64,000 nt of DNA from the NCBI GenBank assembly GCA_003024785.1, contig PUQB01000774.1:37162-101161 (forward strand), read 5' to 3'. Shown piece by piece: positions 8,057 through 64,000 of this stretch. This DNA is from Selaginella tamariscina. Taxonomy: Eukaryota; Streptophyta; Lycopodiopsida; Selaginellales; Selaginellaceae. The notes under the pieces were generated by a model. The model worked only from the letters and a program-made list of their open reading frames with translations, was not told the origin of the DNA and did not search any database. Position 1 is the first letter of the stretch. Each line of letters opens with the position of its first letter. The translations under genes and the position numbers were made by a program.

Positions 8057-8157
8057 ATGTGAATACCAAATATGATTCGATTAGGTCTATCGCCAAGTAA
8101 ATCTTGGTGGTCAGCGCCTAGATTAATGTGCCTGATCCTAGTGCCACATGACACCTT
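8057..8157 (-). mobile_element. Left LTR remnant of the older Ty3/gypsy element
   Basis: Begins TGTGAATACCAAATATG and aligns with 17915-18060 (TGTGAATATCAAATATG onward), the sequence on the far side of the gypsy coding block. The two therefore look like the two ends (LTR pieces) of one old element, here cut short by the insertion that starts at 8158. The strand follows the coding block. Broken fossil. Confidence 0.5.
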
Positions 8158-9730
8158 TGTCATAGTTTTTATTATGACTCTTCTTTACTTTGGATATTGA
8201 CTATTATTACCTAATGTACTATATTGATAAGCTCTAGATGTAATAGGAAACATGCCCGCTTAGTGCACTTGGGTATTTGGTGATGGTCCGGCCGGGTGTC
8301 ATTAGGTATTTACAAGAAACTCTATGCGAAGCTAGAACTTACCTTTTAGAAAACTCTTACCCTAGTTTTCCGTGTCCCGGTTGGGTTAATGGTTAGTTCC
8401 GGTGAGTTCGACATGTTGGATATGTTTAGAAATACCCTTAGATTTGACAGGTTAGGGTTTAGGGGTCCTCACCAAGTATATTCCCTCTGGGAATGAGATT
8501 TCGTGCTAGCCCACTTATGTAAATAGGAAAACAGGGGGGGCCTTTGTCACATAAATAAGGTAATATGTAGGAGTGAGGGTTCCTAAGTTTATGACTGAGC
8601 TCGTTACTCTTCTCTCGGTGCAAATTTGGTAGCTTACCCTTAACATTGGCGAATCCATGCCTGGGAGGTCTTGTGGGAATGCACGTTTCAAGAGGCAAAG
8701 GTTGAGGCTTTGTCTCCGCCTCCTCTTCCACGTCAAGCTAAGAGCAACACTCACAGCTAAGCAGGGCACGTTCGTGTCCTTGTCCAACTGTGGTCGTGGG
8801 TTCTTGATTGACAGGGCTTCCTTATCGAGTCCTAAGGGATAATTGAGGGGTTCTAGAGTTGGCATTTAGGAGCCACATTTGTGGCACTTGGTGCAACTCT
8901 TGAATTTAAGGGCTATGGCATGATAACCCACATCGTGGAAGGCAGTGTCACATGGAGATGTGACACTGGCTAGACTTCACACGATGCAATGCCTGAGGCA
9001 CGCCCTTTGCGGTCATGTTATGGGTTTGTCACCAAGGGGTTGGATACTCAGTAAACAGGCATGCTTGTGCTTGCACTAAGGTGCTAAACCTTAGATATCT
9101 ACTCAAGGAGGTTAGGTCTCGTAACTAGGTTGTTTTCCTTAGGACCTAAGGGTTGAACAACCTAAAACTCTTTAGTATAAGCCTTATCATGAGACATTCG
9201 CAAGGTCATGTACTTAGGGTTATCCAATCCTAGCTTTAAGGTTAGCAAAATATTCATGTTCGCCTACGGCGCACACTCATGTCCTCACTAAGTATTAACC
9301 CTAGGTCTAGGGTATGATGTGGCCACTCAAACCCTTAAGGGTTAGTCGTGGTTCAAGGTATCCCTTGTCACCCTAAAGGGGTTGTTTCTCCCAGATGAGG
9401 ATGATTTCTCAAGGGGTAAGTGATGATGCCTTAGCTTTGTCACGGGGGCATGTGTGAGACACATCTCCTTTGTGGGTTAGGGCATGAGCATGTCTAGGTC
9501 TACTAAGATAGATCCTAAAGTCTACTTGGATAACCTCTAAAGTTCGAGGGATGGTCATTCTAGGGGGCTTAGGGTATTACTCTAAGTCTTCTGTTTAACT
9601 AGGCATCTAAGTCAGACTCTTAGGGTCATCTTGGAAGATTTAGCGTTGCTCACACAGGGAATTGACGTCGGAAGGCCACTTGGCGGCCACGTGTTGCCAC
9701 GTGTTAGCCCTTCAGGTTAAAACTCTGACA
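8158..9730 (+). mobile_element. LTR of a second retrotransposon family, copy 1 (about 1.57 kb)
   Basis: Starts TGTCATAG and ends CTCTGACA, the usual TG...CA LTR ends with short inverted termini. It matches, with many differences, the reversed copies at about 13520-14913 and 37347-39174, and a weaker relic at about 54290-54735. A primer-binding-site-like stretch follows directly. Divergence between copies is visible on every line, so the family is not recent. Confidence 0.8.
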
Positions 9731-13519: not shown

Positions 13520-14913
13520 AACAACCCTAAACCCACAAAGAAGATGGTCTCACACATGCCCCCTTAAGGCATCATCACTCACCCCTTGAGAAATCACCCT
13601 CATCTGAGAGAACAACCCCTTTAGGTGACAAGGGGTACCTTGAACCGCAACTAACCCTTAAGGGTTTGAGTGGCCATGTCATACCCTAGACCTAAGGCTA
13701 GTACTTCGTGAGGCATGAGTGTGCGCTGTAGGCGAACAGGAATGTTCTGCTAAGCAAACTCCCTAAGGCTAGGTTTGGATAACCCTAAGTACATAACCTT
13801 GCGAGTGTCTCATGATAAGACTTCTGCTAAAGAGGTTAGGTTGTTCAACCCTTAGGTCCTAAGGAGAACACCTAATTACGAGACCTAACCTCCCTTGAGC
13901 GGATGTTTAAGGTTTAACACCCTAGTGCGAGCACAAGCATGCTTGTTTACTAGAGTATCCAACCCCTTGATGACAAACCCATGACATGACCCCAAAGGGC
14001 GTATCTCGGGCATTGCATCGTATGACGTCTAGCCCAGTGTCACATCTCTATGTGACACTACCTTCCACAATGTGGGATATTATGCCATAGCCCTTAGATT
14101 CAAGAGTTGCACCAAGTGCCACAAACGTGGCTCCTAAAATGCCAACTCTAGAATCCCTCAATTATCCCTTAGGACTCGGTAAGAAAACCCTGTTAATCAA
14201 GAACCCACGACCATAGTTGGACAAGGACACGAATGTGCCCTGCTTAGCTGTGAGTGTTGCTCTTAGCTTGACGTGGAGGAGGAGGCTGGAGACAAGCCTC
14301 AACCTCTGCCTCTTGGAACGTGCATTCCCACAAGACCTCCTAGGCATGGATTCGCCAAACGTTAAGGGTAAGCTACCCCAAAGGTGGGACGTACCCCTAT
14401 CATCTAGAAGTTAAGATTGGCACAATAGAGGGTTGTGCCTTGACGACACAAGCTAGAGCTTGCATCAAGAGAAGAGTAACGATCTCAGTCATGAACCCAG
14501 GAACCCTCACTCCTACATAATCTACCTTATTTATATGACAAAGCCGCCGCCCCCCTTTTTCTTGTTTACATAAGTGGGCTGGCACGAAATCTCATTATAC
14601 TTGGTGAGTTAATTAATGACCCATTAACCCCTAAACCCTAACTTGAGCGTGGGGTTAAGTCAACCCTAAGGGTGTTTCTACCCATATCCAACATGCCGAA
14701 CTCACCAGAACCACCCAAAAACCTAAATGGGACACGAAAAATCAAGGTAAAAGTTTTTATATGGAAGTGCTAACTTCACCTAGAGTTTCTTGCAATACCT
14801 AATGACACTCGGCTGGACCATCACTAGATATCCAAGTGCACTAAGTGGGCATGTTTCTTCTACACCTCAACAATCAACGTCCAAAGTAAAAGGGGAGTCA
14901 TAATAGAAACTAT
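13520..14913 (-). mobile_element. LTR of the second family, copy 2, inverted and truncated
   Basis: Reads as the reverse complement of copy 1 (for example the CACCCCTTGAGAAATCACCC stretch) and reaches the family end CTATGACA at 14913. Its other end (the LTR 3' end, about 200 bp) is missing at about 13520. With copy 1 it forms a facing inverted pair about 3.8 kb apart. Fossil. Confidence 0.75.
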
Positions 14914-17900
14914 GACACCTAGGAAGGACGCAATTGGGGAGGGCATTTGGCAAATATGCCACAGGTGTTGCCACCACCACATAAGCTTGGGATAATGCGT
15001 CCACATCTGCCATGCTAAATCTTGGTCAATGAACAACCCGAAATCAATACCCTTGTAGAATCAAAGCCCAACGTGCAAGTTGTCCTGTCACATTCCTCCT
15101 CTTCATGATTGAGTTGACTGCAGCATGATCAACTTCTAACAACGTGTCAGAGCCATACGCATGGAACTTCTGAAAGGCCCATACGACTGTTAAGCATTCC
15201 TTGTCTATGGTGAAATAGTTTTTCTCTACATCACTAAGGTTCCGACTTGCATAAGAAATTGGGTACTGTTGACCATCAAGAATTTCCTGCATCAAATCTA
15301 TTCCCAACCCGACATCTGAAGTATTGGTCCAAAGAATAAAGGATTTGTGAAGTCCGGATACTACAACAAAGGTGGAGATCCCAACAGCATCTTAACGTTC
15401 TCAAACGCCTTCTGACACTTTTGGACCATAGGAACCGAGCTCCTTGTTTTAACAATCCTTGCAATGGGGCTGTTAAACTGAGAACTACGGAACAAACCTC
15501 ATTAGGTATGTTGCCTTCCCCAAGAAATGTTGCAACTCAGCCACTGACTCAGGAGTAGGAAATTCTCGTATAACTAGGGTCTTCTCGGGATCCGCTTTCA
15601 CACCCTCTACCGTGATGATGAATCCTGGGTACTTCAGGGAACATCTGAACTTGCAGTTTTGCTCTTTTAACTTCAGCCCGTATTGCACCAATCACTGTAG
15701 GACCCGTTGTAATTGTTGAAGGTGCTCCTCCCACGTAATAGAGTGAATAAGAATGTCGTCAATATACGCATGTGCAAATTTTTCAAAGCCCTTCGATAAT
15801 TCATTCATCATCCGGTAAGGTTTCTGGGGCCTCGACCAACATAACAGTAAATTCGTACAAGCCAAATTGTGTTTGAAATGCTGTCTTTGCTGTATCTTCA
15901 AGAGCCATAGGGATTTGCTAATAGCCGGAAGCCATGTCAAGAATAGTAAAGTACCGGTTGTTCCGCAATGCATTGACCAAATCATCCACCCTCGGTAGTG
16001 AATACTAATCTAGAATAGAGACATCATTCAATAGCTGGAAGTTGATAGTGAAACGTGTAGTCCCATTTGGCTTCAGAATTAGGTGTGGTTTTGTCGCCCA
16101 CAGACTTCGGGACTTACGTATCACCTTCAACTCTAGTATCTCCCTCACACAACGATTAGAATATTCTTCTCTTTCAGAGAACGTTGCCTGTGCCCCATCC
16201 CGATCTGGTGAGGTGTACCAGTCGGGATGTGATGTCGAGTAGTCAACAGGGGATTCATAGCTCCTACAATGGGTTTAAATAGGTTCAGATACCTTGCCAA
16301 CAAGTCCTTGATGTCCTTGACTCATTGCTCTAGAGAATGCTCTTCCTTAGGTGCCATGACGCCCTGCAATGTCGCCATCATGTCATGAGGTGCATGTCCT
16401 ATAGCCCATAATAAAGGGGATCTTGGGATATACAGTGTGCACATCTCGAAATCACATCTCGCCTTGATCACACAGAGACAATTGATACCCAAGATGATGT
16501 CATGGACTTGACTCAGCATCACCCACAATGGAAGTATATAATGGTATCCTCCTAACATCACAGGCACGTGTGCAATTTGATGTGATCAAACAAATGACTT
16601 CTTATTAGCAAACACTACCTTTAAAGTTTGCTCGGCAAATATTGTGTGCAAGTGAAGGGACTTAGCTACTGATCGATTGATGGAAGATATACTAGATCCA
16701 AAGTCACTAGAACGTTCCTTCTACCATGCCTAAGAAGACAAACATAAAACGCTTGGTGTTCGACAACTCAATCGAAACCCCTATGCCCGCACAAGCATGG
16801 AAGAACAAAGGTGCTTCATGGAAGTGTTGACTGCGCAGAGTCAAATTCTTTAGAGGTGATGCAATGTGCCTAGTGCACGGGTCCTCTGACACCCCATGCA
16901 CTACTCCTCGTTTTCTGGCTGAGGAAGCATCTCAACTTCTTCTGCAGTCTCGATGGTGGGCTACTTGATGTCGATTTGCACACGCTCTTACAACATGTCT
17001 CCAACCTCAACACTCGTAGCATTGAATGTTCCGCCCCAACCATGACACGTCGACCAACAAACGGGCCTCAACCCCTCATGTGGCCTAAGGACTTGTCTTT
17101 ATATGGACAACATCCACTTTCATTGGAACATGATTGGATGTCGAAGAAGTTCTAGGAACAGGTGCCGGTACAAGAAACACACATTGTGCTGCTCCCAATG
17201 AGTTTCAAATTGTTGTGCAATCCTCAAGGCTTTTTCCATAGTTGAGGGACCAAATCCCTCCATCAAGCCATCCAAATCAAGGCAAAGAGCTAGCCACAGC
17301 AAGCCCAACCGTACACGTTCTGTCATGCTCAAATCTACACGATTGATCAAGTTCTGAAACTTGATCCCGAATCACTGAACGGGCTCTTTCGACACTTGCT
17401 GCAAGTCATGGAGCTCACGAAAAGCCACAGTGGAATCCTTGGAACTTGCTTGAATCGTTAGGACAAGATGTTCCAATCTCACCAATCGAGAACAGAACAC
17501 TATCGTACCATTGCAAGGCAAGTCCTTACAAACATGTTGGAATATATCGCAACCATTGGGATTCAAACCATCCATGGTAATCAGCAATCCCTTGAAAGTG
17601 TTCCTACCAATGATACACATCTACTCCAATCTCCCCCTTAATAACTCTAGACAAACATGTAGATTCGAACCCAAAAGGTGTGGATTGGCACTCTACTGCA
17701 TATTGGCATTTTATTGCAAAACTCGATGAATTTCCTCCAAGAAAGTGGTTTGATTCGCCATGCTCAACTACAACGCATCGAACAACTGCAACCATCTTTC
17801 TTCATTCACCATCACAAATAATAATAACAAGGGAAGAGGGAAACAAAGAAAAACACAAAAAAGCTAAGCCTTCATAAGATTACCCAACTTCTCCAACAAT

Positions 17901-36939: not shown

Positions 36940-39474
36940 GAGGTGCTGCAAGGGGGGGTGAAGGATAAAAACAGGGGGGAAAACTGGACGCTAGATGAAT
37001 CATTGGCGCTGGCGCAACTGAAAGGATAGGATATCATCAATCAACAAGAGTCTATAGGTCGTGATCGAGGATTGACATCTGATGCATGGTGGGAGGTGAT
37101 TTCCGAGAAGCTTCAGGAGCAGGGGATTGATCATGATGCTGATGCATGTCGGAGGAGATGGCTCAACATTCTGGGTTATTACAAGAAGGTTCAGGAGAAC
37201 CAGCTCAAGACTGGGGCACATAGCTACTTCTCCATGACGGACACTCAGAGAGGAAGCTCGCTGGTGCAAAGTTTGAGGACGAGTTGTACAACGTTCTGCA
37301 TGGTTTCCTCGGGGCCCGAGCTTCAACTCAACCTCCAAACATTGCCTGTCAAGAGTTTTAACCCAAAGGGCCAACACGTGGCAACACGTGGCTGCCAGGT
37401 GGCCATTCGGCGTCATCACCCTGTGTGAGCAACGCTAAGTTTCCCAGAACAACCCCAACGACCCCTAGGGTTAGACTCTAATGCCCAAGTGGACAGGAGA
37501 CTTAGGGTTTAGCCTAAGTCTCCCTAGAATGTCTGCCCCCAGAACCCTTGAGGGATAACCCTAGTTGACTTAGGGTTTAGCCTAAGTCTCCCTAGAGTGT
37601 CTACCCCCAAAACCCTTGAGGGATAACCCTAGTTGACTTAGGGTCTTGCCCTAGAAGACCTAGACAGGCTCATGCCCTAACCCCCATCAAGGAGACGTGT
37701 GTTCCACACATACCCCTGACAGAGCTAAGGCATCGTCACTTACCCCTTGAGGAATCACCCTCATCCGGGAGTACAACCCCTTTAGGGCGACAAGGGGTAC
37801 CCTGAACCACGACTAACCCCTAAGGGTTTGAGTGGCCAAGTTATACCCTAGACCTAGGGCTAGTACTTAGTGAGGACACGAGTGTGCGCCGTAGGCGACA
37901 CGAGTGTTCTGCTAAGCAAACTCCCTAAGGCTAGGTTTGGGATAACCCTAAGCACATGACCTTGCGAGTGCCTTACGAAAGGGCTTCTGCTAATGAGCTT
38001 AGGTTGTTCAACCCCTGGATTCCAAGGAGAACACTCCCCTAGCCAAGTGTGCCAAAGCACACCTAGTTACGAGACCTAACCTCCCTTGAGCGGATGCCCA
38101 AGGCTTAGCACCCTAGTGCAAGCACAAGCATGCCTGTTTGCTAGAGTATCCAACCCCTTAGCGACAAGCCCATGACATAACCCCAAAGGGCGTGCCTCGG
38201 GCGTTGTACCATGTGACGTTTAGCCCAGTGTCACATCTCCATGTGACACTGCCTTCCATGATGTGGGCTATCATGCCATAGCCCTTAGATTCAAGAGTTG
38301 CACCAAGTACCACAAACGTGGTCCTAAATGCCAACTCTAGAACCCCTCAATGAACCCTCAGGAACCAGGTAAGTGAACCTGTCAAAAGATCCCACGCCCA
38401 CAGTTGGACAAGGACACGGATGTGCCTTGCTGTGAGTGTTGCACCTAGCTTGACGTGGAGGAGGAGGCTGGAGACAAGCCTCAACCTCTGCCTCTTGGAA
38501 CGTGCATCCCACAAGTCCTCCCAGGCATGGATTCGCCAACGTTAAGGGTAAGCTACCCCGAAGGTGGGACGTACCCCTGGCATCTGGAAGTTAGGGCGGC
38601 ACAACAGAGGGTTGTACCTTAACGACACAAGCTGAAGCTTGCACCGGCAGAAGAGCAACGAACTCATTCATGAACCCAGGAGCTCTCCTACGTATACTCT
38701 ACCTTATTTATGTGACGGAGCCCCCCCCCCTCTTTTCCTGTTTGTATTAGTGGGCTGGCACTGAATTCTAGCCCCTTAGATAAATTAGCAATATGAGCCT
38801 ATAACTCACCCTTACTCCTACCCCTAAACCCTACCCAAGGGGGTGGGGGTTTTAGGGCGTGGGTTAGGGCAACCCTAGGGTTAGGTCAACCCTAGGGGTG
38901 TTCCTAACCCTACTTAACACGCCGAACTCATGCAAAGACCAATCAGCCTATTCGGGACGTCAAAATTGGGGGTGGGTTTCTAGAAGGTAAGTTCTAGCTT
39001 CGCTTAGAGTTTCCTGCAAATACCTAATGACACCCGGCCGGACCATCACCAGATACCCAAGTGCACTAAGCGGGCCTGTTTCCTACTACATCTAGGGTCC
39101 ATCAACATAGTACAGTAGGTAACAACAGTCAACGTCCAAAGTAAAGGGTCGAGTCATAGTAAAAAACTATGACATTGCCAAACAGCGAGGCAGACATTGA
39201 GGCTGCAGCGACTGTTGCAACTGCAGCGATTGCTGCAGAGAGCGACAACGAGGATGATTCTGGAGCAGAAATAGCTCACGGTTCAACTGGGATTCGAAAG
39301 AAGAAGAGGCGGAGCGACCAGTCGGTGACTAGTGTTATTCGAGAAGGAAACACAATTATGAATCGTCGCACTGAGCTGCAACGTGACTTCCTTGATGTGG
39401 AGCGAGAAAGCGGCGTGTGGAGGGATTATGTGATGGCAATAGTAAACCTCTCCAACTCTGTGGCGAGCTACTAA
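36940..39474 (+). CDS. Harbinger ORF1, Myb/SANT-like DNA-binding protein, split by the solo LTR
   Basis: The first part (36940-37346) reads NWTLDESLALAQLKG, then AWWEVISEKLQEQGI, ADACRRRWLNILGYYKK: the tryptophans and RRRW of a Myb/SANT trihelix fold, as in the partner protein of PIF/Harbinger transposases. The second part (39175-39474) is an acidic Ala/Asp stretch followed by a basic KKKRRS patch and a C-terminal TELQRDFLDVERESGVWRDY region ending at 39474. There are a stop and a frame slip in the first part besides the LTR insertion, so this copy cannot make the protein. The expected job is binding subterminal sites and recruiting transposase. Confidence 0.75.
37347..39174 (-). mobile_element. 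Solo LTR of the second retrotransposon family, 1.83 kb, reverse orientation
   Basis: Ends TGTCAAGAG (37347) and ACTATGACA (39174). It is flanked on both sides by the 5-bp duplication TTGCC, with no internal retroelement sequence. This is the most complete LTR copy in the window. It lies inside ORF1 of the Harbinger element, so it is younger than that transposon. Recombination between the two LTRs of a full element is the usual origin of such solo copies. Confidence 0.9.
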
Positions 39475-54289: not shown

Positions 54290-54735
54290 GAATTAGCACA
54301 AGACTTAAGATCTTATTTTAAATCCCTACAGTGACGATCCTCTAAATGCTAAAGAATAACTCAAAATGAACTTTAAAATTTTGCCTTAAAAGACATAGTC
54401 CCTAACCGAGACATATCTCTTAAGCTCTCACATACCCTTAAAGCATTATAAAAAGAATCACTCTCATATGATAATACAACCCTTTTAGAGTGACGAGGGA
54501 TACCTTAGCCCACAACTAATTCTTAAGGGTTTGAATGAACTAAAAATCTAATCGAAAGTTTTTTTAAAATGAAAATGTTAACTTCGCTTAAAGTTTCTTA
54601 TAAATACTTAATGATACCCAATCGAACCACATAAGAGCACTAAGTGAGCATGTTTCTTTATATCAATATAATTTGGTATGTAACAACAATCAACTTTTGA
54701 AATAAAGAGTGGTCATATTAAAAATTATAACAAAA
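54290..54735 (-). mobile_element. Decayed, internally deleted LTR relic of the second family
   Basis: Follows the solo LTR in order (AACCCTTTTAGAGTGACGAGGG; TTCTTAAGGGTTTGA; AAATACTTAATGATACCCAA; GAGCACTAAGTGAGCATG; AACAACAATCAACTTTTGAAA), with most C/G positions changed to T/A. The oldest-looking copy of this LTR family in the window. Confidence 0.7.
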
Positions 54736-55636
54736 AAGATCTTTATTCCATGCGTAGACAAATAACTCCTACGAACTTTACTTGGATGTGGAAGTTTAAA
54801 GACTCCTTGTGATATGAGATCAATGGTCTTAAGCTTGCATCTCCCTCTCTTCGAACAAGCATGTACATGATGATCCTCAACCCTGTTGTGCAAACATAGA
54901 TTCTTCTCATGACATTGCCACTTTTTAGCTTTTAACAAAGGTTCATGGTGGGCCCAACATTTATGTCCATTGGCATTGGCTCAAAAATGGATCCGACCGG
55001 AAGAGAGCTAGAGGACAAAGATGGATTAGCTTCTCTTATCTTGCTCAAACAACACATTGTCACAACATATAGCCAACTTAATGAAATCATCAAATGCCCT
55101 TCATTAACAAAGAGCATGAGATTTTCGACGTTGTTGCACAAAATGCAAGTTGTAACTAAAATGGGCATGGCTATAGTCCCATTTCCTAATAATTAGCAAT
55201 TTTAGCTATTTAATTAGCATTTTCTAATATTAAAGGAATATTCTTTAGAATATATGTTTGAATATAGAATATTCTATTTTGTATTCTACCCTTTAATAAA
55301 TTATAGCATTCATTGAACAAAAATTAATAACATTATAAAAGTAGAATGTATTAAATTATATAATATATTGCCTAATATAACAATTAAGGAAGAGCATAAG
55401 AGGTACATTATATAAATATTGATGTTGTTATTAAAATATTAATATTTAAATATAACATTATTAATTAAAAATTTGTAGTAGTAATAATATATATATAAAT
55501 CCTATAATAATATAGTCAATCTTCCATATCATTTTTTAAATTTATATAGTTAAGTATACAATTTGGTACTATTATTAAAGAGTTTATAATAATTATGAAT
55601 ATTAAATATATGATATTTTATAATTTTGTAATTGCT
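54736..55636. other. Spacer, no recognised gene
   Basis: 54736-55200 has mixed composition with 80-residue open frames on both strands that resemble nothing I know. It may be retroelement interior. 55200-55636 is AT-rich and lies downstream of the next gene. Confidence 0.4.
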
Positions 55637-58600
55637 TTAAGCTTCAGAAAACATACATTCCCTTGCAGTTTTGTTAATCGTGACTTTATCAACGCTTCTT
55701 GACATCCACCCATATCGAATGGATTTAACATTTATAAAACATGCTGGGTCTTTTTGATTGGGAGACCATGTTTTCTCTAGGCATCCATTATATCTTTCGC
55801 TCTCCTTCTCGTGTCGCCTTTTTTGTGGTTTGAACCATGCAACCTTAACAATACTATTTTTTGTGATTACTTCAGGTGTGTCGATAATTTGACCCATCCA
55901 AATAGGCTGATTATATGACGCATCTGGAGTAATGAGAACCATCATTAGTTTTTGAAGATCCTTGCAGCAATCAAAGTATGCTTTAGGTTTTTGGTTCCTT
56001 TGTCCAACAAAGTGTGGGGTTTGCACTTCCACATCACTACTGGCTTCTATGTCGTCTATGCTCAGTGATGTCATTTCAATCTCCTCTCGCCACCTTGTTT
56101 TAGGCCAGAAAGGGTGTTGCAATTCTGTACTTGTGACAGTAGGCCCTTCCAACTCTCGAACAACAGTCTCCCAATAGTGACCACATGCTTATATAGTTCT
56201 GAGTAACCAGTTGCCTTATCAGAATTCTTTGGCATCGATTTTTGAACCCATGCCACATATTTTTTGATGCCATCAATAATAACCTCTTGTTCCTTGAGCT
56301 GGGCACTCAATGGAATAGGGTCTGGTTGTCCTTCTGGGAGAAGTGGCTTTCCATCCTCTCCACTTTTGAAGAGCATTAAGCCCTCTTTCGGTAACCACTC
56401 CTGCTCTGATGGCCGTAACTTGTACTGCATAATAGGTATACCATCTCGTATGGAGAAAAAGAATTGTAGCGGCACAAGGTGACCAACTAAAGAATCACTC
56501 CCTTCTTTTATATACTCCTTGAGAAATTTTTTGAAGTCTGGCACCTCAGTCACAAGCAAAGCACAACTTTTTTTGGAGATGCAATTTTCAAAAAGATTCA
56601 TCATATGCGGTAAGGTAAGTGCACTTGTCCTTTTTGTAGAGTTGGAGACCTTGCTGAAGAACGCATCAATATCTTCATGAGTGTGACCAACCATAAGGAA
56701 ACTGAGCGTGATTGTTTCAAACACACCTTTGGCAACAAGCATTGACAAGTATGCTAGCACATATCTAGAAAATAAAAGTAAGTATGAGCTTGAGAAACCC
56801 TTAAGTAAAATGATTTACCTATTTTTGTTCTCGCCTGCACAATTATCCATCTGTAAAAGCAAATGACGAGGAAGCTTATTTGATGTTGAGGACACATGTA
56901 CACTATTTGAGCTAGATCCCTCCACTGAACCTGAACTCTCAACAGGGCCATCTGTTTTTTGTGCAGGTTGCTGACAATGCCTCTCATATTCCCAAGTAGC
57001 CTCAAGTGCAGACGTGTTCATGAGAGCATTATGTAAAGGTTGAAGGTGTTGTTTCTTCACTTTGAGATCACTGATAGGACTTGTCTGTGAGTGGGCTTCA
57101 AGGTTTCTGAAACACATGGCTAACGACCCAATAGTGAAATTGGAGTCGCTAGACCAATGTGGAAGTGAAAAGTGTCCATATGACTCACAACCGTGTCCAT
57201 GTGTTAGCACACCTGTCAATGAAATCGGAAGTTTCATGACATTTCCAAGGCACTTTGGTGTTGCAAAGAGCTTTGGAATGCTGGTCTTTGAATGATCCAT
57301 CTTGTCATGGATCAAGCACAGGTACTCTGATGGGCGTGACACAGAAAGCATGCGGTGTGCATAGTACTGAGACCGGCAAGTTTGTTGTGCAATCATGTGG
57401 GCCTCCATCTTCCTTTGAATGGTAGTGATCTCCACCAAGGTTTTTGCACAAGCCTCTGCAGCCTTCAATGATGTACAAGTGTCACACTTAAAAGCTAGAG
57501 TGTTTTGCAATCTCCACATCCTTAAAATGAGTATTCCATATGTTGTTGAAGGTACCAGTGCAGATTGCTTGGAGCCCCATCAAACTGAGGCACTTGTTCA
57601 CATGTTCACACAGTTTCAATTGAGTGTAGATTGAAGGCAAAACCTTGAGATTTTCCCTGACCCCTGCATTTGTGGTTCGGCATTTGTGAGGCATCCTGTC
57701 TGCATTTGCTTCCACAAAAGCCTTGAGTATCTCTATGGCTGCCATGATGTGAGAGCGGGTTTTGACCAAGCGAGTGTTCCCATGAACTGAGGTTCGCGCT
57801 CCATCTAGCCACTCATCCCTCCGACGGTAGAACGTGGTCTTTGGGATCCCGTATATACTGTACCAAGCTTTGAAGCAGATGGCCACCTTATTAAATACCA
57901 TGGATGTACTCTGATAACCTGTGTCCGAGGCCATTCCATCAATACACCCAGTTAGTGCAGCATATACAAACTCATGCCTTTGCTTTTGGGTGAGCATACG
58001 AAAGACATGTCTACATTGGGTAATTTCATTCCGGTCTGCCATCTGACAACACTTCTTCTTGCAACAGTCAATCGTGGAAATGCTCGTAACACTTTCGGAA
58101 GATGTAGGATCCATCTTTACCCTCTTGCTGAAACTTGCAGGGGAAGATCTACAACCCATGAATCGCCTTTTTCTTACAATAGGACCAATGCAAGGAACCT
58201 CTTCAAATATGAGTTGTTCTTCCGGGTTGTTATTATTGAAATCCAACCCAGAATATGTTGAACCATCTTGCCGTCTTAATTCAGATGTTCGCCACCTCAC
58301 GAGGGATCCAGGATACAATGTGCCATTAGGTGAAACCTCTGTCACAACTACACCCACGAAGTCGGACCCTAGTTTCTCTTCTGACACTGCTTCCATTGGA
58401 TTTATAGCTGTGATGATGCCTCTTCCGACTTCAATCTCACGAAGAAAGAGAATCACCTCATCCATCACAGCAGGCAAGCCATCATCTGGTAAACTCGTGC
58501 TACTATTTGTTTGTGACTCTGCATATTCTGTGTCAGCCTTGACTTCATCCAAATTCCACAATACAGGAGAACCCTCCTCAAATTCCATTCCCAGAACCTC

Positions 58601-58753
58601 AACATGCTTGTAAATGGTGTTCACCCATACGTACACACAAGATCCTTGGGCAATATTGTGACATGATGCATTATTATCTCGAACTTCCACAGTTCCAGTG
58701 CCAACTATCTCGTTGTTCCGAAGAAGACATACTTTATCTCCAGTATTAAACAT
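55637..58753 (-). CDS. DUF7869-like protein with RNase-H/transposase-type core
   Basis: About 1000 residues. Reads from MFNTGDKVCLLRNNEIVGTG (58753; an upstream exon is possible, since GTGCAG precedes it) through a long N-terminal region with a Cys-rich patch (CCKKKCCQM), then YGIPKTTFYRRRDEWLDG, THFKDVEIAKHSSF and KCDTCTSLKAAEAC. The core is LLLQMDNCAGENKNR, a 54-bp intron (56820-56767), then YVLAYLSMLV and LSFLMVGHTHEDIDAFFSKV. That D-N-x-x-x-E-N-K-N/HTHEDID arrangement matches the widespread uncharacterised family annotated DUF7869, which looks like a DDE/RNase-H-fold element protein. Slips at about 57500 (T4 for T3) and 56160 break the frame. Composition is GC-richer than its surroundings. 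Function is unknown; a transposon-derived origin is inferred. Confidence 0.6.
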
Positions 58754-58905
58754 ATTGTCCTGCACATAAATAATTGTATTATTTATGATATCTGTTTATG
58801 CAATATTTTAAGAAATCTGAATTACGGTTACTTAATAATATGCATATGCAATAATACATAATTATGTTTAGAGATAATATCTCATGTTTGATTAATACAA
58901 CTGAT
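58754..58905. other. AT-rich gap between the DUF7869-like gene and the palindrome cluster
   Basis: 152 bp, AT-rich. A TTTATGTGCAG acceptor-like word sits just upstream of the first methionine, so a small 5' exon could lie here or beyond the palindromes. Confidence 0.3.
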
Positions 58906-59235
58906 GGGCGGGATTAATCCCGCCCACGAATCCCTCCGACGAGGAACGGTCGGCGGGATTAATCCCGCCGCCGACTCAACCCCTTCGGAGAGAGCGGGAT
59001 TAATCCCGCCGGACTCCCCCGAAGGAAGAGCGGCGGGATTAATCCCGCCGCTCTTCCTGTCGGGAGTCCGGCGGGATTAATCCCGCCCACAATTCTTACG
59101 ACGGGGAATGGGTGGCGGGATTAAACCCGCACATAACTCTCTCCAAAACTATGATTTCAAAGAGATCTCGGGATAAAATCCTGTCCCCAAATCCTTAAAA
59201 CAGGAAGTGTGGTGAGATTAATCCTGCCACCCCTT
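58906..59235. repeat. Palindrome cluster 1: five GGCGGGATTAATCCCGCC units plus decayed copies
   Basis: Near-perfect 16-20-bp palindromes at about 58906, 58950, 58993, 59032 and 59071, then degenerate ones (GGCGGGATTAAACCCGC at 59115, GGTGAGATTAATCCTGCC at 59210). The unit at 59032 sits in the perfect 34-bp palindrome GGAAGAGC-18-GCTCTTCC, and the arms go on (GGACTCCC.../...GGGAGTCC) so that about 58990-59090 can fold into one long hairpin. GC-rich island in AT-rich DNA. Confidence 0.95.
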
Positions 59236-60104
59236 TCCCTTACCGGAAAATGTAAAAAAACAAAGCAAAAAACTATGCCTAATTTTATAAATACTAGGGT
59301 AAAATTTTTTTTACTAACATACTAGGGGAAGTACTAAGGGTCCAAGAACAAGGGTTGGTTTTTGGGTTTGTAACATGTATAAAATTATATTATAATTCAT
59401 TAAAATATAGTGAAAAAACATTTTATTTATTTTCTCATTTAAATTATGTTTTTATTTCACCATGGTAGTTTGATAGTAAGTTAAATTAGGAATAATTTTT
59501 TACTTTGTAATAAGGATAGAAAGAAAAAAATTATTTAATTTAATATATCATAATAAAATATATTTTAGTTTTTGAATTATATTAGAAATGCACACATGTA
59601 TATTTCTACACACATACATCCTTTATGTAAATTCGACAATTATGGCTTAACAAAAGATATTTCATTTTGAATTATATAATGTTTAACCTATGTGGTATGT
59701 GTGTGTGAGAGACAAAAGAGGAGAGATGCATTATACATTCCACATCCATTGAAATGGTGTGCCTATGAATGTTTTAATTCTATATATGTGCGTGTGTGTG
59801 CTCATGGATGTGTATATGAGGTGCCCATGTTGGTTTTTGTCTCTGAGTTTTATAATTTGTGGTTTAATGGTTTGACATGAGCATGTGTTGAAAGTATATA
59901 AGCATGTGTGCATGCATAAATTCATCTCTCTTTGTCCCTCTCTACACACACATATATAAATAATGTCTGTAAGATGTATAGACTCACATATTTAAATTAT
60001 AATAGATATAATAGATATTGTGAAACTCTTAATATATACATACATTATACTTATATAAAATATTACATGTAATACACGTAAGCTAACCTAAACAGGGGAT
60101 CCTA

Positions 60105-60261
60105 GAATATGCTTTAGGGTTCTTCTGTGAAGCGGCGACGCTCCGTTGCTGCAGATTCATGGTCCGTGCGCAGCGAATACGGCAGCGTCTCGGATGCGGA
60201 TGAACTCGTTCGCCAGGCCGAGGCCATGATTGAGACGCCTCTGTCCAGGATTTCAGGTATC
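60105..60261 (+). other. Gene-like GC-rich fragment (possible captured exon)
   Basis: Reads GSSVKRRRSVAADSWSVRSE then YGSVSDADELVRQAEAMIET and SRIS, followed by a donor-like CAG|GTATCT. GCTTTAGGG at its start resembles a telo-box leader. Composition and codon use look like a real host exon, but I do not recognise the protein and nothing downstream continues it. Confidence 0.4.
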
Positions 60262-60281
60262 TGGCTGTGTCAATCTGAGAG

Positions 60282-60391
60282 AGAGAGAGAGAAGGGAGGG
60301 GAGAGAGAGAGGAGAGAGAGAGAGAGAGAGAGAAGGGAAAAGAGAGAGAGAGAGAAGGAAGAGAGAGAGAGGAAGGGGGAGAGAGAGAACA
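60282..60391. repeat. Purine (GA) tract
   Basis: About 110 bp of A/G only, between two gene-like fragments. A similar tract lies at 60845-60920. Confidence 0.95.
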
Positions 60392-60394
60392 CCA

Positions 60395-60550
60395 TCCCCG
60401 GCCGTACCATTGGTATCTTCTTGCCAGAATCTTTCTGTCCAGATCTGCAAGGCAGGGTTTGCTAATGCTCCCTCTCTTGCCATCTCTTGTGCCATTTCTG
60501 GAGGTATACTGTCACCCGAGTGCTTCCCCATATATGTCAGCTACAACAAA
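60395..60550 (-). other. Second gene-like fragment, opposite strand
   Basis: The minus strand reads MGKHSGDSIPPEMAQEMARE, GALANPALQIWTERFWQED and TNGTAGDG, a plausible exon of ordinary composition. Unrecognised. Its opposite orientation to the fragment at 60105 suggests separate pick-up or rearrangement within the foldback-like element. Confidence 0.35.
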
Positions 60551-60597
60551 GTAACATTTAATTAATACTACACAATAGAAGCATACAAAATGCGTTT

Positions 60598-60637
<40 letters not shown>

Positions 60638-62040
60638 GGAGAGAGAGAGAGAGAGTCAATCGTACATCATTTCTTTATAAATATATGCACATCCACACAT
60701 ATGTATGTATTTCTATGTAATTCAGTACACATGTATGTGTGAATCTGTGCGTTAATTTTACATAAAAATGGTGAAAATGATTTAAATCAATGCGATAGTA
60801 ATCTAATTTTATATATAATTTCACATACCTTTATGAAAATCCGGGAGAAGGGAGGGAGAGAGAGAGAGAAGGGAGGGAGGAGAGAGAGAGAGAAGGGAGA
60901 GAGAGAGAGAGAAGGGAGGAGTTAATTGTTTATCAATTTACGTTTCAGAAGATTGTGTCAATATATAATATTTCACTTTATGTAGTCTTATCTAATGCTA
61001 CCAATAAATGTTAAAAATATTTTTAGAAAGTTTATAAAAATTAAATAGTAGTTTATTACTCATTTGAATATTATACATCTCTAGTTATATCTGTTTATTA
61101 CATATTATCAACTGTTAATTACAAAGTTGGTTTTTACTTAACGCAAGAACTGTGTTATATATATATACTTAATGATTAGTCGTGTACAGGGATAATTGTT
61201 GTATACTATAGTTGCATACCCACTTAAATCGTTAAGCATGTGTATGTTGTCTTACATCAGAGTCTATGTACGCGTTTAATATATATGCATACATATAGAA
61301 TACATGTCAACATATATACATCCATATATACATGGACTTACGCAGTATGGGTGCATATTAGAAAATGTGTGTGTGTGGGTGCTTGCGTGCTATGACCATT
61401 TAACTATGCATATGTTACATGTCATCTGCTGTATAAAAAAATCTAAGCTTATTTAATAGCATATATGTCTTTTTGTTCTTATTTCATGTTCTGTGTCTTC
61501 ACAGATAATACAAAACTTGTTTATATTCTGCTGTGTGAGATACATTGCTGCTCGCACGTTTTGTTGTCCATGGATACACCTTGAGAGCACGATGGTTGTC
61601 ATATGCAAGATGTGTGCAAACTAATGCTGAAGATAAAAACCAGGTTTATTCATGTTTTCATGTGTACTCCTAGTCTCCTTAGTTAGTAATAGAATACATT
61701 CTCGGCAGGGATTATTGTTCCTTGCTATATATATTATATGTAATATTATATATAAATATTACATATAATATATACATACTCATATAGTTATTGCAAGGAT
61801 TAGAAAGATAAGTGAAAAAGCTTAGAAGAAAGAGACATTAGAGATTTAATGTTTATTGTTTTTAATTTAATTAATGAAATTTAAAGAGTTTTATTAAGTA
61901 CAATTAAAATCAATAAACAAACTTAAATTTAAATAAAATAAATTATATAGAAAATAAATAGAAATTATTACTGTATAAATAAGGGTAAAAACAAGGGTAA
62001 AAACAAAATAATATTACAAGGTATATTAACTAGAATAATT
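60551..62040. other. AT-rich spacer with microsatellites, no gene
   Basis: CA/TA/GA repeats at 60600-60655 and a purine tract at 60845-60920. Otherwise AT-rich with nothing recognisable. Confidence 0.6.
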
Positions 62041-62188
62041 ACAATGTTAAAAACAAACCAATGTTCAACCCTAGTATGTTAACTACTTTTTACAAAAACA
62101 AAGGCTTGTTTTCTAGAGATGTTTTTTACCTTAAAAATGACAAAAACTAGGGGTTTACATTTTCCGGTGCCTGCTTCCTAAAATGGTT

Positions 62189-62390
62189 GGCGGGATTAAT
62201 CCCGCGACAACTCTTCTAATAAATTCTGGTAACTCTTCATCAGTTGAGAAGGTTATCGGCGGATTAATCCCGCCACTCTTTTTAGTGGCAGAGAAGCATT
62301 GCCCGAGAGATGGTGGCGGATTAATCCCGCCACCTCTTCGAAGAGGCAAAAAAGAAATGGCCGGATTAATTCCGCCGCCCCGGTTAACCT
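62189..62390. repeat. Palindrome cluster 2: four GCGGGATTAATCCCGC-type units
   Basis: Units at about 62189 (GGCGGGATTAATCCCGCG), 62258 (GGCGGATTAATCCCGCC), 62315 (GGTGGCGGATTAATCCCGCC) and 62361 (GGCCGGATTAATTCCGCC), plus CCTCTTCGAAGAGG (62333), a perfect 14-bp palindrome. More diverged than cluster 1. Confidence 0.93.
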
Positions 62391-62935
62391 AGAATATTAA
62401 GTTAAAAGGATATTTAAACGGGATAAATCCCTAACGGAATATATTATAATCCTAATGATTCTTAAACCCTTAAATTGTAATTTTAAGAGAGAATGTAAAG
62501 AGAGTGAATCTTTATAAGTATTTTTAAATTTGTTTATAATACTTACTTGTAAACAGCACTAAAGGCGCCGTGCTTTCCTATAAAGAATAGCACCCAATTT
62601 AATCTCGCTCCTGAGATGATCACTATGAAGAAAAAAAGATCTAAAGAGTGAAAAATACAGAAATGAAGAAACCCTTACCGGAGAAAGAACCAGATCTGAA
62701 TTTGAGTGGGAAATTAAATGCATTTTCAAATTTACATGTCAGACCGACAATACATATGTCAGAAATTCAAATTTTTTTAAAAAGAACAGAAAATAAATTT
62801 AAGATAAGTTAACCAAATATCCGACACTCTGACATATATACTCTCCAGTTCCAATGAGTATTTTAAAATTGCATTTAATGTTATTCAAGTGATTTAAATT
62901 GTTTAATATTACGAAAATTTTAGACTATATTTTAC
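62391..62935. other. AT-rich spacer, no gene
   Basis: Contains CGGGATAAATCCC-like remnants just after 62418, perhaps the decayed outermost palindrome. Nothing else recognisable. Confidence 0.5.
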
Positions 62936-63745
62936 ATTCTTAGTATTCAAGTATATTTATATTATATATATATATATATAAATATATACTTATACAATAA
63001 ATAAATTGATATATTATTATGTATCATTTAAAATATATTCATAGTCTGTTTATTATTATTATTTTCTTAATTACTCGAGTATTTAGTTTTCATTTCCTAG
63101 TATCAATGGGATATTCTTTATTATTTTATTAATATTTGAAGAATATTCTAATATTAAACCTGAATCATAATTAAATTAGTCTTGTTCTTAATTATTGCAG
63201 TAATTATTCTACATTTGTATATATTAATGGGATTTTCTCAATTAATTTGTTATTATTTCAAGAATATCCTGTGTTAAACCTTATTATCAATATTAAATTA
63301 ATATATATTATTAAAACTATATATGACTATATATTAGATAAAATGAGTATTATTATGTATAATTTAAAATATGTTCATAGTGTGTATATTAATATCATTT
63401 CCTTAATTACTTGAGTAATTAATTCTTTATATTAATGGGATATTCTTTATTATTTTCTTTTTATTCCAAGAATATTCCAATATTAAACATGATTATGATA
63501 ATTAATTTAGTTAATTATTTGAGTACTTAATTTACATTTGTATATATTAATGGGATTTTCTCAATTAATTTCTTATTATTTCAAGAATATTTCAATGTTA
63601 AACCTTTTATCAATATTAAATTAATATAATATATTAAAACTATATATGGCTATATATTAATAAAATTATATATTATTATGTATAATTTAAAATATGTTCA
63701 TAGTGTGTTTATTAATATTATTTCTTAATTATTCGATGTTTGTTT
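62936..63745. repeat. AT-rich tandem repeat, period about 325-340 bp
   Basis: The word ATTTAAAATAT(G/A)TTCATAG recurs near 63026, 63362 and 63684, and TTAATGGGATWTTCT recurs with AAGAATAT about every 110-170 bp within each unit. It looks like two and a half units of a satellite-like repeat. 63746-64000 shows no gene. Confidence 0.75.
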
Positions 63746-64000
63746 TGCACACATATATAAACACAATCATAAATTTACACACGCATTACAAGAACTTACA
63801 AAAACACATATGCACACACATGCACAACCCTAAACCAAACTGAAGAAAATATGTTGTTTCTTTATTGAAAACATCATGTTCAACGCATGTATGATATATA
63901 TACTCAATCTGTGTGTATGTAACACATTGAATTTACATGTGTAATATTATATTAAGTTGTTGGGAGCAAACCCTACCCTGTGTATACATGTGTGTACAAA

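Follow-up and report, generated by a model that had tools for sequence, protein, structure and literature searches.

The window, a stretch of 64,000 nt of Selaginella tamariscina DNA, codes for PPR proteins with an E motif, for TAXi-type proteases and for a DUF7869 protein, whose gene has an array of palindromes beside its 5' side (Table 1). Palindromes of this kind make up the recurring core of two noncoding, GC-rich arrays, here called A and B, and both arrays are internal to a DNA transposon about 13.5-14.4 kb long. A dispersed repeat also occurs in the window at 54456-54734, 8156-9406, 13592-14859 and 37752-39165, seen as two blocks, whose separation is about 1 kb in three of its four copies; it is perhaps LTR-related, with reverse-transcriptase RNase H at 15047-15391.

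Table 1. Features of the transposon copy in the window (window coordinates)
Feature	Position	Strand	Basis or remark
Right terminus, window copy	55143..55169	.	Inverted repeat ATGCAAGTTGTAACTAAAATGGGCATG; homology to other copies stops here
DUF7869 gene	55637..58753	-	ORFs of 435, 254, 247 and 183 aa in neighbouring frames
Array B, gene-proximal part	58905..59235	.	Perfect palindromes and degenerate copies
Perfect palindromes, gene-proximal part	58905-58926, 58951-58970, 58994-59009, 59023-59058, 59070-59087		
Degenerate copies, gene-proximal part	59114-59131, about 59167-59184, 59211-59228		8 mismatches in the copy at about 59167-59184
Foreign insertion, 2,929 bp	59241..62169	.	Alignment to L068 and L069, both without the insertion
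Array B, distal part	62173..62431	.	Sites 62189-62206, 62257-62274, 62314-62331, 62359-62376; degenerate 62420-62431
AT-rich central region	62440..64000	.	About 323-bp tandem repeats at 63000-63736; TRF and matches to other copies

The palindrome array noticed in the first-pass annotation is real: the window has 11 GGCGGGATTAATCCCGCC-like sites at ≤3 mismatches, whereas 100 shuffles predict 0.01. Seven of these sites form a left block (58907-59228; spacing 45, 41, 39, 38, 44 and 97 bp), in which the perfect palindromes measure 22, 20, 16, 36 and 18 bp, while the other four, absent from the first-pass annotation, form a second block (62189-62376) of the same array. The end originally given to the array, 59235, does not hold, since the array resumes at 62173. 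The long nested palindrome is present at 59023-59058, but its length is 36 bp rather than 34 bp.

What separates the two blocks is a foreign insertion with inverted termini of its own, (T/C)ACCGGAAAATGT...ACATTTTCCGGTG, and a 3-bp target duplication, CCT, at 59238-59240 and 62170-62172. In the copies represented by L068 and L069 (97.2% identity between L068 and window 57888-59130), the array continues unbroken across the point that corresponds to the window's break at 59240/62170, and the proximal and distal parts adjoin directly in copies that lack the insertion. The window therefore holds a single array that was split later. The inverted arrangement of ACCGGAAAATGTAAA and TAACATACTAGGG within the blocks at first gave them the look of mirrored ends; however, the unbroken array in other copies led us to reject a foldback element, or a pair of facing transposon ends, across 58.9-62.4 kb. 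The inserted DNA holds GA- and AC-repeats as well as two exon-like stretches (60118-60255 on the plus strand, and within 60256-60531 on the minus strand). The idea that these are captured gene exons between the blocks was rejected, as they match no significant Pfam family and lie inside the later insertion.

The boundaries of the transposon itself were defined from five copies on contig C1 (A-E), which share common ends at lengths of 13.5-14.4 kb; among the matches listed, many end pairs lie about 14.6 kb apart. Its 27-bp inverted termini read ATGCACGTTGTAACTAAAGTGGGCATG on the left and ATGCAAGTTGTAACTAAAATGGGCATG, reversed, on the right. Both ends carry the terminal repeat ATGCA(C/A)GTTGTAACTAAA(G/A)TGGGCATG; copies A-C deviate from it by single changes, and in copy D the first letters of the left end are altered. 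At ≤2 mismatches the genome holds 3,160 left and 3,673 right termini, against 0 for the controls; if all 3,160 left ends belonged to full 14-kb copies, the upper figure for the family would be about 44 Mb. For the target site, 20 end pairs were picked by distance and orientation from 100 listed places per end, with some observed pairs left out. An exact 4-bp duplication was found at eight of these 20 pairs versus six of 380 swapped partners, and among the remaining 12 pairs two fit with a one-base shift, judged by eye, and ten mismatch. The element thus has both the inverted termini at shared boundaries and the fixed-length 4-bp duplication of a class II TIR transposon. Copies A and B have flanks (C1:894826-899000 and 913469-917661) that are 98.6% identical and 18.6 kb apart, which suggests that both were carried by a recent segmental duplication.

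The element has two genes that face outwards, each with one array beside its 5' side. Among the five full copies, the left end is 5.0-6.4 kb away from array A and the right end 3.7-4.7 kb away from array B, and 3.0-3.4 kb separate the two arrays. This central region holds tandem repeats, with a unit of about 323 bp in the window and tandem repeats in other copies too; in copy A the centre is 27% GC, between arrays of 56% and 51% GC. Because the contig stops at window position 64000, the window copy is without array A, the leftward gene and the left terminus. Across six copies, array A contains 12-28 sites and array B 13-17, with a spacing mode of 44-45 bp. The five full copies carry 27, 28, 31, 42 and 38 sites at ≤4 mismatches, and all but one site per copy lie inside the arrays. 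The earlier suggestion that the palindromes mark a transposon end is contradicted by this layout, since the arrays stand 3.7-6.4 kb from termini that carry a different 27-bp inverted repeat. Each of the five full copies also has, within the leftward gene region and remote from both arrays, a single palindrome-like site with 2 mismatches (L075 3289-3306, C1:902289; also L132 2164), which is possibly a source or an outlying regulatory site.

A count of the exact 18-mer gives 27,128 copies in the genome of 300.7 Mb, against 0 for a reversed control. We grouped by eye 100 listed places, all on contig C1; among these matches there were 17 groups, of which 12 made up six pairs about 3-4 kb apart. 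Sequence was examined for 16 of the groups (all except C1:2057730-2059107), and 15 of them lie inside element copies, in agreement with the proposal that the array is part of a mobile element. The sixteenth (C1:2071485) lies in a degraded array just outside copy D. The clusters recur in the genome and are often paired, but they are not the ends of the element. The element most likely carries the bulk of the 27,128 identical 18-bp palindromes. In the examined stretches, 18 further sites fall outside the five full elements, 16 of them in the one degraded array just left of copy D (≤4 mismatches; L083 6604-8468, C1:2070604-2072468), which lies beyond the boundaries of that copy and is perhaps the remnant of another.

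Matches in bacteria (49 stretches with the exact 18-mer) and viruses (seven stretches, with a 16-mer) were discarded as relatives, nearly all being single matches (bacterial stretch L011 has two). Nine of the 49 bacterial stretches (L012, L021, L025, L026, L032, L034, L036, L038 and L049) come from one Prevotellaceae MAG, Cus372_bin5; several of these matches are near contig ends, which suggests an unrelated repeat there.

The gene beside array B matches the DUF7869 family (Pfam PF25273, E=1.1e-13 and 1.2e-25). In the window it has a frame change near 57491-57579 that is absent from the copies L076 and L135, and we infer by eye an intron near 56760-56815. The exact start string is found in three of nine sequences (D, F and the window copy), and in all three the gene's ATG, at 58753 in the window, is 154 bp away from the nearest array B palindrome. 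The protein matches Transposase_23 (TNP1/En/Spm) below the cut-off (E=0.19 and 0.12) and has a helix-turn-helix-like stretch by eye (HTH_psq, E=0.18, non-significant). The 435-aa ORF had no relative in the viral contigs searched, and an AlphaFold model of this ORF alone was unusable (mean pLDDT 37.3). A search for the family gave 4,249 first-look candidates, of which 150 were scored, yielding 300 matches; runs of N, as seen in L134, may have lengthened the long open frames among these (up to 1,092 aa), which need not be intact genes. Three further loci, C585, C660 and C633, belong to the same family as the window gene. Upstream of the gene there are nine core sites in C585 and 14 in C660 at ≤4 mismatches; in C633 the gene match begins only at its position 1374, with no array and 0 core sites. 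DUF7869 was not mentioned in the literature searched, which yielded no more than analogues; since it did not extend to Repbase or to most subscription journals, the family may have been described elsewhere. The one paper that matched GGGATTAATCCC is on an unrelated subject.

The leftward gene lies on the opposite strand to the left of array A, and in the copies examined a distance of about 0.4-0.5 kb separates the start of its outermost ORFs from that array. It includes a NIF-type phosphatase region (E=9.3e-11, and 1e-08 in another copy) and matches DUF1015 below the cut-off (E=0.0096). One stretch is reminiscent of ParB/sulfiredoxin proteins, a likeness that the library searches did not support; no ParB family appeared among the Pfam, NCBIfam or PHROGs matches of the leftward-gene ORFs.

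We compared the core with its surroundings by aligning array B pairwise in nine sequences (36 pairs), which fall into the groups {D, F, W} and {A, B, C, E, G, H}. Between these subfamilies, differences amount to 183/3932 (0.047) in the core, 872/5892 (0.148) in the spacers, a figure that the alignment of non-orthologous units could raise, and 603/12306 (0.049) on the gene side. Within the larger group the corresponding values are 166/3851 (0.043), 285/6537 (0.044) and 193/9973 (0.019), and within the small group 4/510, 15/820 and 2/2102. The core is less divergent than the spacers in all 18 between-subfamily pairs, which represent one ancestral branch and are not independent, and in 27 of 36 pairs overall, the core sites having been selected by their similarity to the core itself. 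Once the spread of the larger group is subtracted, the core retains almost nothing, the spacers about 0.10 and the gene side 0.03; between the two lineages the core has thus hardly changed. Such a pattern fits constraint on the core while the elements are active. Within a lineage, decay strikes core and spacer alike; in the larger group both exceed the gene side, and decay is therefore not simply uniform.

The reading towards which we lean, from sequence pattern and analogy, is that the arrays may be binding platforms for a dimeric regulator that controls the element's own genes, in the manner of VANC. This is also the best of the readings first offered for the locus, that of a dense platform for a dimeric factor beside the DUF7869 gene, given the density of the arrays, the constraint on the core and the short distance to the ATG. 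Specifically, a putative sequence-specific homodimer would bind each 18-bp palindrome. The element itself probably encodes this protein, which would be either the DUF7869 protein or the product of the leftward gene, though a host protein is a possible binder. Multivalent binding at the arrays could then activate the element's promoters and shield them from silencing, as VANC does on VANDAL repeats and TnpA on Spm. The position at gene 5' sides, the density, the variation in copy number, the association with the element and the constraint on the core all match the target repeats of VANC proteins, which are encoded by their elements, bind arrays of motifs and take away silencing marks (PMC5735166, PMC10398659), and the mechanism may resemble that of VANC targets or of Spm TnpA sites.

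Other explanations of the arrays have to be set against this one. The DUF7869 protein might act as a transposase that binds them to assemble a synaptic complex, as at the TNPA sites of En/Spm or the THAP sites of Galileo. Dense arrays within the element would suit this, as would the long TIRs with multiple transposase sites that the consulted part of PMC3688188 describes for Galileo and the GC-rich and AT-rich parts of CACTA subterminal motifs described in that of PMC2613891. We nevertheless regard it as unlikely, since in the five full copies the arrays are kilobases away from the ends and the termini carry an unrelated inverted repeat. Somewhat less credible again is a passive minisatellite, in which the core is merely part of an expanding unit and owes its uniformity to array turnover. 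The wide range of array A counts and the equal decay of core and spacer inside the larger subfamily are as this predicts; however, core and spacer should then duplicate together, yet the spacers differ three times as much between subfamilies, and the same core is common to both arrays. A replication or maintenance origin, with the arrays flanking the AT-rich tandem-repeat core and loading a replication or partition protein in viral or plasmid style, would agree with the GC contrast in copy A and with genes directed outwards. We give it only a small chance, as no replication gene was found among the ORFs scanned (a subset of all ORFs) and a TIR transposon with target duplications requires no origin of its own.

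Slightly less probable than an origin is a structural role, in which selection acts on the fold of a hairpin or cruciform serving as siRNA source, terminator or recombination hairpin. The single strand does fold strongly, as had been claimed (z = -15.9, with a long stem around 59041, and -5.6), and the symmetry over 18 bp is perfect. Among 262 sites in ten sequences, however, symmetric pairs were changed on one side in 286 cases and on both sides in seven (13.7 expected if independent), four of the seven being still complementary. Of the one-sided changes, 136 are C to T or G to A, as methylation would give, and 91 are exchanges between C and G, which are not of the methylation type. Moreover, the longest palindrome at any site in the nine other sequences is 26 bp; that of 36 bp occurs in the window copy only, the longest hairpin is thus peculiar to this copy too, and long stems differ from copy to copy. 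Both the lack of enrichment in compensatory changes and the uniqueness of the 36-bp palindrome argue against a hairpin device, and the pattern of changes speaks for a symmetric sequence that a dimer reads rather than for a fold that is maintained. The faintest of these prospects is that the palindromes are parS-like loading and spreading sites, suggested by YYIISGQHTITAAQRLL, which we take to resemble the parS of ParB-parS systems. Here a ParB/Srx-like leftward protein, fused to or beside the NIF-type phosphatase, would load at the palindromes, spread along the element and keep it open or hold its copies together; a partition-type system would then have become an anti-silencing or clustering device of a plant transposon.

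If the palindromes do dock a regulator of the element's own, as in the reading we prefer, they would be a further example, this time beyond the MULE and CACTA elements, of a transposon that protects itself by arrays of a motif. They would also provide a natural assay, with a core kept between active lineages and decaying within them like the spacers. The palindromes are a large potential sink for host factors that recognise the core. More generally, the DUF7869 family gains a concrete mobile-element setting, with boundaries, a target duplication, a partner gene and cis sites.

On the features tested, the element is neither a MULE nor a CACTA transposon. The VANDAL elements, as MULEs, have a MULE transposase and an approximately 9-bp duplication. 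The element described here differs in its 4-bp duplication and its DUF7869 gene, and no MULE domain was found among the ORFs scanned (a subset of all ORFs). The likeness to VANDAL21, VANDAL6 and VANC of Arabidopsis lies in a family-enriched short motif, in noncoding tandem arrays and in variable repeat number. The part of PMC5735166 used here describes VANC21 as binding noncoding tandem repeats at a short motif and stripping methylation; it places the VANDAL21/VANDAL6 motif densely in noncoding tandem repeats within introns and upstream of the genes of the element, with a repeat number that varies between copies. In the C1 sample examined, our motif is likewise concentrated in noncoding tandem arrays; it differs in being an 18-bp palindrome with a period of about 45 bp, whereas the VANC21 motif in the same source, YAGTATTAY, has one orientation. 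Foldback elements and Galileo share internally repetitive DNA, with multiple transposase sites in Galileo (PMC3688188, in part), but foldback elements have long terminal repeats built of sub-repeats, while the repeats here are not terminal and the inverted repeat is only 27 bp. With En/Spm (CACTA) and its TNPA/TNP1, the element shares motif arrays near a gene's 5' side and a non-significant TNP1-like match in the DUF7869 protein, while differing in arrays that are internal rather than subterminal, in the absence of CACTA termini and in a duplication of 4 bp rather than 3 bp; TnpA, as stated in the portion of PMC10398659 consulted, activates Spm in correlation with demethylation.
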